From: Chitinophagaceae bacterium PMP191F
Lineage (GTDB): Bacteria; Bacteroidota; Bacteroidia; Chitinophagales; Chitinophagaceae
Length of the DNA stretch: 64,000 nucleotides
Direction of reading: 5' to 3'
NCBI GenBank assembly: GCA_001302245.1
Contig: LGYU01000025.1
Span: forward strand, 1-64,000
Both the position numbers and the translations under genes were made by a program. Below the pieces are notes generated by a model, which worked only from the letters and a program-made list of their open reading frames with translations, made no database searches and was not told where the DNA came from. Of the stretch, positions 54,788 through 58,750 are shown piece after piece (position 1 is the first letter of the stretch; every line of letters begins with the position of its first letter).

Positions 54788-56050
54788 ATGAAGGTTCTCA
54801 TACAACAGGTTCGGATTACAGATCCATCGTCATCACTGCACGACACAATACAGGATATTTTTATCGAGTCAGGCGTTATTAAAGATATTCAGCCTACGCT
54901 GACCGTTGCTGCCGACCAGGTAGTATCGGGTAATGGATTGCATGTTTCACCCGGCTGGGTGGATATTTTTGCAGCCTTTGGCGATCCGGGTCTTGAATAC
55001 AAAGAAACGCTGCAAACCGGTGCCGCTGCTGCTGCTGCCGGTGGTTATACAGAAGTATTTACTTTACCCAATACCAAACCAGTGGTGGATACCAAATCGC
55101 AGGCTGAATATATTAGCCGGGCATCTGCTACTCTGCCGGTTACCATACGGCCCATTGGTGCCATATCAAAAGGCGCTGAAGGGAAAGACCTGGCCGAAAT
55201 GTACGATATGCGTGCCAGCGGTGCGATAGCGTTCAGCGATGGTACCCATCCGCTGCAATCTTCCGGTGTACTGCTGAAAGCGCTGCAATATGTTAAGGCT
55301 TTTGACGGGGTTATCATCCAGATCCCGGATGATAAAAGTATCGGTGCCGGTGGCCTGATGCATGAAGGCATTGTGTCTACCCGCCTCGGATTGCCCGGTA
55401 AACCAATCATTGCCGAAGAACTGATGGTGGCCAGGGATATAAAACTGGCGCGTTATGCAGATTCAAAACTGCATTTTACAGGAGTTACTTCTCCCAAATC
55501 TCTGGAATATATCCGCCGGGCAAAAGACAGCGGACTGGCAGTGACCTGTTCGGTAACGCCTTATCACCTGTTGTTTACCGACGAAGACCTGCTGCAATAC
55601 GATACCAATCTGAAAGTATACCCGCCTTTGCGTACACCGGCAGATGTTTCGGCACTGAAACAGGCTGTAAAGGATGGTACCATTGATTGTATCGCCTCCC
55701 ATCACCAACCGCATGAATATGACAGTAAGGTGCTGGAATTTGAATATGCCAAAAATGGTATGACGGGATTGGAAACAGCCTATGCTACCCTGAAAACGGC
55801 TATGCCGGATGTAGCAGAAAGCAAGTGGGTTGATTTGCTGAGCATTCAGCCACGCAGGATCTTTGGACTGGCTGTGCCCGTTATTGAAAAAGGCGCACAG
55901 GCAAGTCTTACTCTTTTTGAACCTGGCTCAACCACTTCGGTTACAGAATCATTCTTCCGGTCCAGGTCAAAAAACTCACCTTTTATCGGAAAGACGCTTA
56001 GCGGAAAAGTCAGGGGAATTATTCACAAAGACGGAGTACATTTAGCATAA
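54788..56050 (+). CDS. Dihydroorotase-like protein lacking the metal-binding residues
   Basis: 420 residues, start at ATG 54788 (MKVLIQQVRITDP). The fold and length match dihydroorotase, the third step of pyrimidine synthesis. However, every metal-ligand motif is altered. The strand DxHxHxREPG reads DIFAAFGDPG (59-68), with both histidines (F61, A63) and the arginine lost; the HIxHVST motif reads HFTGVTS (G232); the HxED position reads IPDD; and the DHAPH motif reads SHHQPH (H305 in place of D). A lysine usually carboxylated cannot be assigned. Zinc-less, inactive homologues (PyrC'/PyrX type) are known that stabilise aspartate transcarbamoylase. That is the likely role, or an unknown one. First of a co-directional run of genes. 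Confidence 0.88.
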   Translation: MKVLIQQVRITDPSSSLHDTIQDIFIESGVIKDIQPTLTVAADQVVSGNGLHVSPGWVDIFAAFGDPGLEYKETLQTGAAAAAAGGYTEVFTLPNTKPVVDTKSQAEYISRASATLPVTIRPIGAISKGAEGKDLAEMYDMRASGAIAFSDGTHPLQSSGVLLKALQYVKAFDGVIIQIPDDKSIGAGGLMHEGIVSTRLGLPGKPIIAEELMVARDIKLARYADSKLHFTGVTSPKSLEYIRRAKDSGLAVTCSVTPYHLLFTDEDLLQYDTNLKVYPPLRTPADVSALKQAVKDGTIDCIASHHQPHEYDSKVLEFEYAKNGMTGLETAYATLKTAMPDVAESKWVDLLSIQPRRIFGLAVPVIEKGAQASLTLFEPGSTTSVTESFFRSRSKNSPFIGKTLSGKVRGIIHKDGVHLA

Positions 56051-56068: not shown

Positions 56069-56623
56069 ATGGAAAATAATATTGCCGCCAAAAAGAACAT
56101 TGGTCCTTTATATGGGTTGATTGCCGGCCTTATACTGGTTGTACTGATGTTTTGCCTGTATATGGGCGGGGTGTCTGCTTTCATGGGGCCACTGGGCTGG
56201 CTGAAATATCCGCTGATCATCCTGATTGCAGTACTGGCTGCACAAAAGCTTAAAAAGCTGAATGGTGGTTATCTGCCTTTTGCTGAAGCATTAAAGATCA
56301 TATTTGTAGTTTTTGCGTTGGGCTTTTTGCTGGAAACCATTTTCAGCTATATACTGCTGAACTTTATTGATACCGATTTTCGCGAAGCAATGACACAGGC
56401 TGCTATGGAAAAAATGGCTGCTTTGTTCAAACGCCTGGGTTCATCGGAAGAGCAGATTGAAAAAATGATGGAAGAGGGCTCAAAGAAAGAGAACTATTCT
56501 CTGGGCAAAGTATTGTTGGGATATGGCCTGGGGTGTATTATATCATTCATTTTTGCATTGATCATTGCTGCTATCGTTAAAAAGAACAAGCCCGTATTTG
56601 ACAACAACTCTTTCAACCAATAA
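56069..56623 (+). CDS. DUF4199 membrane protein
   Basis: 184 residues with four hydrophobic spans: LYGLIAGLILVVLMFCLYM, YPLIILIAVLAAQKLKKL region, IIFVVFALGFLLETIFSYI and LGYGLGCIISFIFALIIAA. A charged helix between spans 3 and 4 (MAALFKRLGSSEEQIEKMM) is typical of DUF4199. In Chitinophagaceae it is often next to a GT2 glycosyltransferase; here that gene starts 4 bases after the stop. Function unknown. Confidence 0.88.
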   Translation: MENNIAAKKNIGPLYGLIAGLILVVLMFCLYMGGVSAFMGPLGWLKYPLIILIAVLAAQKLKKLNGGYLPFAEALKIIFVVFALGFLLETIFSYILLNFIDTDFREAMTQAAMEKMAALFKRLGSSEEQIEKMMEEGSKKENYSLGKVLLGYGLGCIISFIFALIIAAIVKKNKPVFDNNSFNQ

Positions 56624-56627
56624 CCTT

Positions 56628-57578
56628 ATGGATCTTTCGCTGGTAATACCCTTGTTAAACGAAGAGGAATCACTGCCTGAGCTGTGTGCGTGGATTGAGC
56701 GGGTGGTGAATGAGCATGGGTATACCTATGAGATCATCCTGGTAGATGATGGCAGTACGGACGATTCATGGCGTGTGATCGAGTCGCTGCGTGTGCAGAA
56801 CAATCATATTAAAGGTATCAGATTCCAGCGCAATTACGGAAAATCAGCCGCCCTGAATGAAGGCTTTAAAGCTGCCCAGGGCGATGTGGTGATCACTATG
56901 GATGCCGATATGCAGGATAGCCCGGATGAAATTCCGGAGCTGCGTAAAATGATTGCGGAAGATGGCTTTGATATGGTGAGTGGCTGGAAAAAGAAACGTT
57001 ATGACAATACGCTCACCAAAAATATACCTTCCAAATTCTTTAACTGGGCTACACGCCGTGCTTCAAAGATAGAACTGCACGATTTTAACTGCGGTTTGAA
57101 AGCCTATAAGAAGAAGGTGATTAAAAGCATTGAGGTGTATGGTGAAATGCATCGCTATATACCGGTACTGGCCAAATGGTCAGGGTTCAGAAAGATCGGT
57201 GAAAAAGTAGTAGAACACCGTGCCCGCAAATATGGTACTACCAAGTTTGGCTGGGAACGTTTTGTAAATGGTTTTCTTGATCTGGCATCCATCATGTTTG
57301 TAGGTAAGTATGGCAAACGTCCTATGCACCTTTTCGGACTGATCGGCACCTTGTTTTTCCTGATAGGTTTTGCCATGGTAGCATACCTGGTGATTGCCAA
57401 GATTGTAGATCCGGTGAACAGTATTTCCAACCGTCCGCCTTTTTATATATCACTAACTTCTATGGTCATCGGAACACAATTGTTCCTGGCAGGATTTCTG
57501 GGAGAACTGATAGCGCGCAATTCCTCTACCAGGAACTTTTATCTTATTGAGAAAAAGATCGGTATTGAGCAGGCCTGA
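56628..57578 (+). CDS. GT2 glycosyltransferase (DPM1/GtrB-like) with two membrane spans
   Basis: 316 residues from ATG 56628 (MDLSLVIPLLNEEES). The GT2 domain opens with that motif, then EIILVDDGSTDDSW and the metal-binding DADMQDSP (residues about 94-101), ending at the acceptor region RKYGTTKFGWERF. Two C-terminal spans (GLIGTLFFLIGFAMVAYLV and TSMVIGTQLFLAGFLGEL) anchor it. The layout is that of polyprenyl-phosphate glycosyltransferases such as GtrB/DPM1. Start choice: the frame extends 21 codons upstream but overlaps DUF4199. Confidence 0.9.
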   Translation: MDLSLVIPLLNEEESLPELCAWIERVVNEHGYTYEIILVDDGSTDDSWRVIESLRVQNNHIKGIRFQRNYGKSAALNEGFKAAQGDVVITMDADMQDSPDEIPELRKMIAEDGFDMVSGWKKKRYDNTLTKNIPSKFFNWATRRASKIELHDFNCGLKAYKKKVIKSIEVYGEMHRYIPVLAKWSGFRKIGEKVVEHRARKYGTTKFGWERFVNGFLDLASIMFVGKYGKRPMHLFGLIGTLFFLIGFAMVAYLVIAKIVDPVNSISNRPPFYISLTSMVIGTQLFLAGFLGELIARNSSTRNFYLIEKKIGIEQA

Positions 57579-57613: not shown

Positions 57614-58750
57614 ATGAAAATTGTTATAATAGGTCCCGGACATCCGTTGCGTGGCGGGCTGGCTACTTTCAACCAGCGTCTGTGCAAACAGTTTATTGAT
57701 GAAGGACATGATTGCTGCATCTACTCTTTTTCGCTGCAATACCCGTCTTTTATGTTTCCGGGTACTACACAATATTCCTCAGAACCTGCTCCTGAAGGAT
57801 TGCCGGTCTATTCGGTGATCAACTCTATACACCCGCTGAACTGGCTGCAGGTGGGCAATGAATTAAAGCGCCTGCGTCCGGATATTATCGTGGTACGTTA
57901 CTGGTTGCCTTTAATGGGGCCTGCACTGGGTACTATTGTACGGTATGCACGTAAAAATAAACATACCCGCATTGTTGCTATTACCGACAATGTGATACCA
58001 CATGAAAAAAGACCTTTTGATGTACCTTTTACCCGCTATTTTCTGAAAGGCTGCGACGCGTTTATTACTATGAGCGAAAAGGTGATGAAAGACCTTCGCA
58101 GTTTTGAAGCCGAAAAACCGGCGCAGCAGGTATTGCATCCTTTGTATGATAATTTTGGTGAACCGGTGTCTGCAGAAGCAGCACGTACACATCTTGGTGT
58201 AAGCCAGACAGACAAGATCATTCTGTTCTTTGGATTTATCCGCAAATACAAAGGACTTGACATATTGCTGGAGGCTATAAAGCTGTTAAAAGACAAACAG
58301 CAGCAGGGCGGCGTCACATACAAGTTGCTTATTGCCGGAGAGTTTTATGAAGATGCAAAAGCGTACCAGGAGCAGATAGAGCGTCTTGACATTAAGGACA
58401 ATCTTATTTTACGAACTGACTTTATTGCCGACAGCGAAGTGAAATACTATCTCTGTGCGGCAGACGTAGTGATACAACCCTATCGCAGTGCTACCCAAAG
58501 CGGCGTTACCCCCCTCGCCTATCACTTTGAAAAGCCTATGATCGTTACCAATGTAGGTAGTTTGCCGGCATTGGTACCACATGAAAAAGTGGGCCTGGTA
58601 TGTGACCCGGAACCAGCTTCTATTGCCGGCGCCATTGACAGGTACTTTGAATTAGGTGAAAATTATTTTATTCCGCACCTTCGCGGGGAAAAGAAGAAAT
58701 ATTCGTGGCACAATATCGTTAAAGCGATTACCGAGGTGGCTGGTCTGTAA
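57614..58750 (+). CDS. GT4-like glycosyltransferase (GT-B fold)
   Basis: 378 residues. N-terminal Rossmann-like domain begins KIVIIGPGHPLRGGLATFNQRL, a glycine-rich donor-site pattern; the C-terminal domain has IILFFGFIRKYKGLDILLEA and the donor-binding YRSATQSGVTPLAYHFEKP with the following GSLPALV. It belongs to the large GT4 retaining family; sugar specificity is not evident. It lies between GT2 and the heptose genes, so transfer of heptose or other sugars to a surface glycan is a reasonable inference. Confidence 0.9.
   Translation: MKIVIIGPGHPLRGGLATFNQRLCKQFIDEGHDCCIYSFSLQYPSFMFPGTTQYSSEPAPEGLPVYSVINSIHPLNWLQVGNELKRLRPDIIVVRYWLPLMGPALGTIVRYARKNKHTRIVAITDNVIPHEKRPFDVPFTRYFLKGCDAFITMSEKVMKDLRSFEAEKPAQQVLHPLYDNFGEPVSAEAARTHLGVSQTDKIILFFGFIRKYKGLDILLEAIKLLKDKQQQGGVTYKLLIAGEFYEDAKAYQEQIERLDIKDNLILRTDFIADSEVKYYLCAADVVIQPYRSATQSGVTPLAYHFEKPMIVTNVGSLPALVPHEKVGLVCDPEPASIAGAIDRYFELGENYFIPHLRGEKKKYSWHNIVKAITEVAGL

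Follow-up and report, generated by a model that had tools for sequence, protein, structure and literature searches.

In Pseudomonas, whose aspartate transcarbamoylase (ATCase) belongs to class A2, and in S. meliloti, a dihydroorotase (DHO) homologue without metal ligands, known as PyrC' or pDHO in the former and PyrX in the latter, is found together with a separate DHO and a PyrB chain for it to serve. The Pseudomonas PyrC' gene lies beside pyrB. In published reports, the P. aeruginosa pDHO chain is described as inactive yet needed for ATCase activity (PMC7053772), and the S. meliloti homologue is likewise placed beside pyrB, with its disruption leading to pyrimidine auxotrophy (PMC5929573). 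A dead DHO is also reported to be kept with ATCase as the pseudo-DHO domain of fungal CAD-like proteins (PMC7053772). In the DHO-ATCase complex of Aquifex aeolicus (class A1; 3d6n, 4bjh), the DHO is active. Class B ATCases contain a regulatory chain, PyrI, which belongs to another protein family and would fill the same role as these DHO homologues, that of joining two PyrB trimers.

The window, that is, the whole 64,000-nucleotide stretch of Chitinophagaceae DNA that was analyzed, contains an open reading frame that begins with ATG, encodes 420 amino acids, and has no internal stop codons.

54788..56050, + strand: pseudo-dihydroorotase (pDHO), 420 aa, assigned from the open reading frame, the TIGR00857 match, and residue tables

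The encoded protein scores 337.9 bits against TIGR00857 (type-I dihydroorotase, NCBIfam; cut-off 279.05), and by sequence it is thus a type-I DHO. Since this score exceeds the cut-off for the NCBI DHO subfamily, a comparison that covers the window protein only, automatic annotation would label the protein a DHO. Among its solved relatives, the best in the HMMER alignment are the Aquifex DHO chains 4bjh_A and 3d6n_A.

Using Aquifex DHO as the reference, we counted residue positions along the HMMER alignment. D305 is the catalytic base of DHO. Six Aquifex residues (H61, H63, D153, H180, H232, and D305) correspond to F61, A63, G152, I179, G232, and H305 in the window protein, and none of the six is kept.

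54968..54976, + strand: codons 61-63, F61 and A63 in place of the HxH metal pair of Aquifex DHO (alignment, residue tables)
55241..55243, + strand: codon 152, G152 where Aquifex DHO has metal ligand D153 (from counting along the alignment, residue tables)
55322..55324, + strand: codon 179, I179 where Aquifex DHO has H180 (alignment, residue tables)
55481..55483, + strand: codon 232, G232 in place of H232 (alignment, residue tables)
55700..55702, + strand: codon 305, H305 in place of D305 (alignment, residue tables)

The window protein therefore has neither the metal ligands nor the catalytic Asp of an active DHO. D151 resembles a kept ligand, but it pairs with Aquifex D152 and not with the ligand D153. 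The original prediction had described this protein as a DHO homologue with all metal ligands replaced, citing F61, A63, G232, and H305. All four of these replacements are correct, and G152 and I179 are two further losses. Its claim that the protein has no normal metal-dependent DHO function agrees with the residues, from which inactivity would be predicted. Because zinc in Aquifex DHO is reported to be held by H61, H63, and D153, with D305 as the next closest ligand, and because an H180A/H232A variant is reported to retain activity (PMC3880350), the telling losses are those of H61, H63, D153, and D305.

Across the family set (n = 81; the window and 80 loci), F61 and G152 are present in 81/81 proteins, H305 in 80/81, and G232 in 76/81, while position 179 is I, V, L, or M in 81/81. 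As 61/81 proteins retain H63, A63 sets the window apart. Former ligand positions in the Chitinophagaceae have thus become fixed to the new residues F61, G152, and H305. Class-wide, the six positions are conserved below average (1.61 versus 2.31 bits; 55 sequences).

The original prediction had also turned on whether a second DHO gene exists in this genome, which is 99.99% complete. One was found, P0002, which matches PRK09236 with 648 bits (cut-off 535), and the genome encodes a dihydropyrimidinase as well.

L002:436-1818 (genome contig C7): presumed working DHO of the genome (P0002), with QxH instead of HxH

In P0002, Gln replaces the first His of HxH, as it does in P. gingivalis 2gwn, and H63, H180, H232, and D305 are kept in the alignment. 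PRK09236-type DHOs may therefore tolerate Gln at the first ligand. This subtype uses a lysine-bridged center. P0002 is a reminder that a single lost ligand is no proof of inactivity. One PyrB above the family cut-off is encoded in the genome, on contig C12 downstream of a pyrR gene, and a search of the genome for PyrI produced no match. Thus, the genome has what would be expected of a class A2 partner system: PyrB without PyrI, and a separate DHO together with a homologue that is inactive as judged from its residues. A position beside pyrB, which is usual but not strictly defining, is not seen, as pDHO lies on contig C18, separate from the contig of pyrB and at least about 100 kb away from it. 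When the window, L161, and the pyrB locus L006 were scanned with Rfam, no family was returned, and hence no PyrR element was seen. The PyrB of this genome resembles PyrB chains that are active as bare trimers, with B. subtilis PyrB outscoring Aquifex PyrB; the B. subtilis-type PyrB is reported as a class C trimer (PMC7053772).

We consider it likely that pDHO is a non-catalytic partner of PyrB of the PyrC'/pDHO/PyrX kind. The observed basis for this proposal consists of the six lost residues, purifying selection, the separate DHO, PyrB without PyrI, class-wide presence, linkage to pyrB outside the class, and absence from PyrI genomes. Its inactivity, its physical binding to PyrB, their stoichiometry, and the need for pDHO in PyrB activity are the parts that we infer. 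A catalytically dead pDHO would be retained as a non-catalytic partner whose dimers, judging from Pseudomonas PyrC'/pDHO and from the active Aquifex complex, could hold two PyrB trimers in a dodecamer. By the same analogy, it may stabilize or enable the PyrB active sites, and DHO chemistry would be carried out by the separate PRK09236-type DHO. The likeness to Pseudomonas PyrC' and to PyrX lies in residues and gene content. Unlike the S. meliloti gene, the window gene lies on a different contig from pyrB, in a run of glycan genes. The Aquifex DHO is the closest solved sequence and the top fold match, but it keeps all six residues. Unlike the fungal domain, which is fused within a eukaryotic multienzyme, the window pDHO is a separate protein.

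Residues were read at 101 distinct Bacteroidia loci, one duplicate genome having been dropped. None of the six is kept at 18 loci, one at 47, two at 21, three at 14, and six at 1, so that 100/101 keep three or fewer. Outside the class, 10 of the 11 loci read keep 6/6; the exception, G011 (family f12), keeps 1/6, and its relatives G006 and G001 keep 0. The lone intact Bacteroidia copy, that of G071 (L171), lies directly behind pyrB, with no pseudo-DHO among the matches listed for that genome. This pyrB-pyrC pair looks like an intact replacement operon, perhaps acquired. We also searched for pyrB in 18 genomes outside the class, hand-chosen from the phylum survey. The DHO gene directly adjoins pyrB in 9/18 and is far from it or on another contig in the other 9. 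The adjoining copies are intact in G171, G183, G242, G014, G050, and G077, and inactive (0-1 of 6) in the f12 genomes G011, G006, and G001. Among the matches listed for the class sample, G321 is the one genome with a pDHO less than 4 kb from pyrB, and there the two genes are on opposite strands.

In our trees, a single group unites the Bacteroidia pseudo-DHOs and includes the G469 contig, and the branch from it to all other sequences has an SH-aLRT support of 99 (100 in a reduced set). The inactive f12 copies are placed elsewhere in the tree. One common origin with the Bacteroidia inactivation is unrejected by the AU test (p = 0.196), and therefore a second, independent inactivation in f12 is only suggested. 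The simplest history would start from a type-I DHO linked to pyrB. Once a second DHO had taken its place, this enzyme would have given up its chemistry, and its gene would then have left pyrB. Among the open-licence papers listed by our literature searches, we saw no description of a Bacteroidia pseudo-DHO; Labedan's study of ATCase quaternary structures, cited in PMC5929573, may mention it. What appears to be new is how widely pDHO extends across a class, how far its gene lies from pyrB, and that it and PyrI exclude each other; the mechanism is already known from Pseudomonas and is supported by the S. meliloti gene disruption.

The class sample comprised 148 Bacteroidia genomes. Residues were read in 90 of them (89 pseudo, one intact) and the others were counted by similarity, with genomes giving a weak match or none re-searched with a 55-sequence profile. 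PyrI scored over its cut-off in five genomes, of which none (0/5) has pDHO; in these five, the profile search turned up DHOs with an HxH or QxH motif and nothing else. Of the 139 genomes with PyrB and without PyrI, four of which have PyrB in pieces below the cut-off, 136 have pDHO (including G278, counted on a partial match). The remaining three are G012 and G290, without pDHO, and G071, with its intact DHO. This mutual exclusion of PyrI and pDHO gives a Fisher p of 1.2e-7, where genomes are counted and not events. Four genomes lack PyrB (G165, G261, G275, and G302), and three of these are without pDHO. The exception is G261, which has a diverged pDHO-like protein and no PyrB match. A PRK09236-type DHO is present at E<=1e-60 in 141/148 genomes; G264, G310, and G368 have pDHO without a clear DHO of this type.

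Among 150 Bacteroidales, which include four of the five PyrI genomes, PyrI was matched at E<1e-33 in 144, one of which has pDHO. Matches to the window protein at E<1e-30 occurred in four. Three of these, in G447, G501, and G505, were rejected as pDHO, being intact DHOs with 6/6 residues. The fourth, in G469, was also set aside as a case of pDHO and PyrI occurring together: its pDHO is sister to that of G308, a member of another family, on a short branch, and so probably belongs to a foreign contig. Weaker Bacteroidales matches were taken by score as another type of DHO and the profile was run on the five PyrI genomes, so very diverged copies could be missed. The PyrI exclusion pattern comes mostly from one clade, the Bacteroidales, and is largely one phylogenetic contrast.

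Absences of pDHO go with an altered or missing PyrB, as seen in G012, G290, G165, G275, and G302. G012 has neither pDHO nor PyrI, and its PyrB, encoded in a pyrB-carA-carB run, sits on a very long branch; its genus mates G094 and G209 have no pDHO by profile. G290 also has neither, and its PyrB groups with PyrI-linked PyrB, while its genus mates G259, G333, and G313 keep a native-type PyrB and pDHO. Because G290 is a fragmented MAG (410 contigs), it is a weak case. An apparent loss of pDHO in family f75 was rejected, as the single-sequence search had missed very diverged copies that the profile found in four of the five genomes (L300, L296, L304, and L299); the fifth, G278, gave a partial profile match. 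These are extremely diverged pseudo-DHOs, in genomes whose PyrB and PyrC are also evolving fast.

A quick tree of 71 PyrBs unites the sequences from pDHO genomes with those from DHO-carrying genomes outside the class, and the PyrI-linked PyrBs lie across a branch with an SH-aLRT of 99. The f75 PyrBs belong to the pDHO group, in which they have a long stem, and those of G012 and G290 are long branches of unsure placement. Mirror-tree analysis of 51 genomes gave correlations of 0.82 for PyrB-pDHO and 0.81 for PyrC-pDHO (partial 0.48 and 0.41). Without 12 fast lineages these became 0.43 and 0.52 (partial 0.19 and 0.37). The PyrB-pDHO correlation is therefore no better than that of PyrC-pDHO, and there is no sign of special co-evolution with PyrB. 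Several PyrB loci are unusual in themselves. PyrBs at L223 (G313, contig C52) and L222 (G290, contig C75) group with PyrI-linked PyrB, with no PyrI match in either genome, and the L222 PyrB is encoded beside a CPSase large subunit and an aspartate aminotransferase. At L260 (G447) and on contig C8 of G501, PyrB lies in a 365-aa frame adjoining a stretch that matches the C-terminal part of PyrI only, over about 42 positions with E near 1e-4. The matching stretch in G447 contains one stop, and an intact DHO lies about 3.5 kb away. A PyrB-PyrI fusion at these loci is possible.

The AlphaFold model of pDHO has a mean pLDDT of 83.9 and is predicted to adopt the type-I DHO fold. In a fold search, 3d6n_A, the Aquifex DHO bound to ATCase, ranked first with a TM-score of 0.89 and 34% identity over the structural alignment. 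The free type-I DHOs 3mpg_A, 4yiw_A, and 3gri_B have the same TM-scores as 3d6n_A, and free Aquifex chains rank lower partly from missing loops; therefore, the fold match does not favor the ATCase-bound form. Segments of the model with pLDDT below 50 are residues 130-132, 188-202, 272-277, and 312-322. They are more conserved than the rest of the protein both class-wide (2.69 versus 2.27 bits, a difference reached by 17/419 pattern shifts) and within the family (3.87 versus 3.16, reached by 7/419). Three of them are located as follows, each from the AlphaFold model and conservation.

55349..55393, + strand: residues 188-202, conserved low-confidence segment
55601..55618, + strand: residues 272-277, conserved low-confidence segment
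55721..55753, + strand: residues 312-322, conserved low-confidence segment

Free Aquifex DHO is reported to have three disordered loops, loop A among them, that are ordered with ATCase (PMC3880350). Cys181 of Aquifex loop A aligns with P180 of the window protein, just before segment 188-202. Perhaps this segment is the counterpart of loop A, and the low-pLDDT segments are the loops that ATCase would order. Conservation in segments of low model confidence is what a binding surface should show, though it is no proof of one.

If pDHO is indeed a PyrB partner, then most of a major bacterial class has a protein that resembles a DHO but whose true role is structural, within another enzyme of the pathway. 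Metabolic models would err in counting genes of this kind as DHO, an essential "second pyrC" would have an explanation, and the exclusion between PyrI and pDHO would offer a natural comparison of two ATCase assembly routes. A bolder reading, which we think unlikely, is that two unrelated ATCase partner chains were exchanged long ago within the class, with a dead DHO used in most lineages and PyrI in the Bacteroidales. In this reading, the dead site may have become a regulatory pocket, which would make pDHO a regulatory subunit that binds effectors and is encoded at a distance from pyrB. The idea of an effector-binding subunit comes from the ligand positions that are fixed in Chitinophagaceae though drifting class-wide.

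Could the protein instead be a degenerating DHO duplicate without function? Extremely diverged relatives do exist, in f75, in G267/G319, and in G261. However, the 80 relatives examined, which are the best 80 of 235 and therefore a favorable sample for such a count, are all full-length proteins with 54-75% identity, the nearest being those of Niastella, Longitalea, and Paraflavitalea. These relatives point to the Chitinophagaceae as the family of the window organism. Values of dN/dS are 0.02-0.07 in the 12 closest pairs and 0.06-0.10 in the window's four closest pairs, for which dS is 1.8-3.2 and near saturation. By these sequence measures, pDHO is a maintained gene under purifying selection and not one in decay. 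Decay of a useless duplicate is also hard to reconcile with the presence of pDHO in nearly every PyrB-positive, PyrI-negative genome of the class, and this explanation, already disfavored, strikes us as extremely improbable. It also seems very doubtful that the protein is still a DHO or some other amidohydrolase, with another metal site or none. One paper, citing other work, mentions a P. aeruginosa PyrC paralogue without zinc ligands that has DHO activity (PMC2770081), and both the Gln of P0002 and 2gwn and the active Aquifex H180A/H232A variant (PMC3880350) indicate some tolerance of loss. Against this, all six residues are gone, D305 included, and across the class the six positions fall below the average conservation.

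The role as a PyrB partner must also be weighed against the gene neighborhood, as pDHO begins a same-strand run that continues with DUF4199, GT2, and GT4 genes and then heptose-like genes.

56069..56623, + strand: DUF4199 protein, the next gene, after an 18-bp gap from pDHO; presumably outside the mechanism (open reading frame and domain)
56625..57578, + strand: GT2 glycosyltransferase, neighbor (open reading frame and domain; a longer TTG start at 56565 is listed)
57614..58750, + strand: glycosyltransferase with Glyco_trans_1/4-type domains ("GT4"), neighbor (domain)

One could imagine from this arrangement that a dead amidohydrolase has been recruited, independently of PyrB, to an envelope glycan pathway of DUF4199, GT2, and GT4. 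The arrangement is conserved across the Chitinophagaceae, as the comparison of neighborhoods proposed with the original prediction showed: of 80 loci, 79 have a GT2 match and 78 a GT4 match. However, GT2 was matched in only 10/51 loci of other families (single-sequence search of about 5 kb on each side, some cut by contig ends) and in 3/44 further loci with 1.5-kb flanks. The other 41/51 and 41/44 loci are without a GT2 match, yet all but one intact copy carry a pseudo-DHO, and the absence of pDHO follows changes in PyrI and PyrB. A purely glycan-related function thus seems improbable to us, and the DUF4199-GT2-GT4 context looks like a trait of the family and not like the cause of pDHO being kept. 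The original prediction had drawn the right comparison, with Pseudomonas PyrC', and had read the residues as those of an inactive protein; its suggestion that the glycan neighbors may point to a different job is not supported, given that the protein persists class-wide. Farther along the run, between 58811 and 61226 of the window, are three consecutive genes resembling those for HddA (heptose 7-phosphate kinase), GmhA (sedoheptulose 7-phosphate isomerase), and HddC (heptose 1-phosphate guanosyltransferase). All three score below curated cut-offs, and the sequence resemblance suggests GDP-heptose synthesis.
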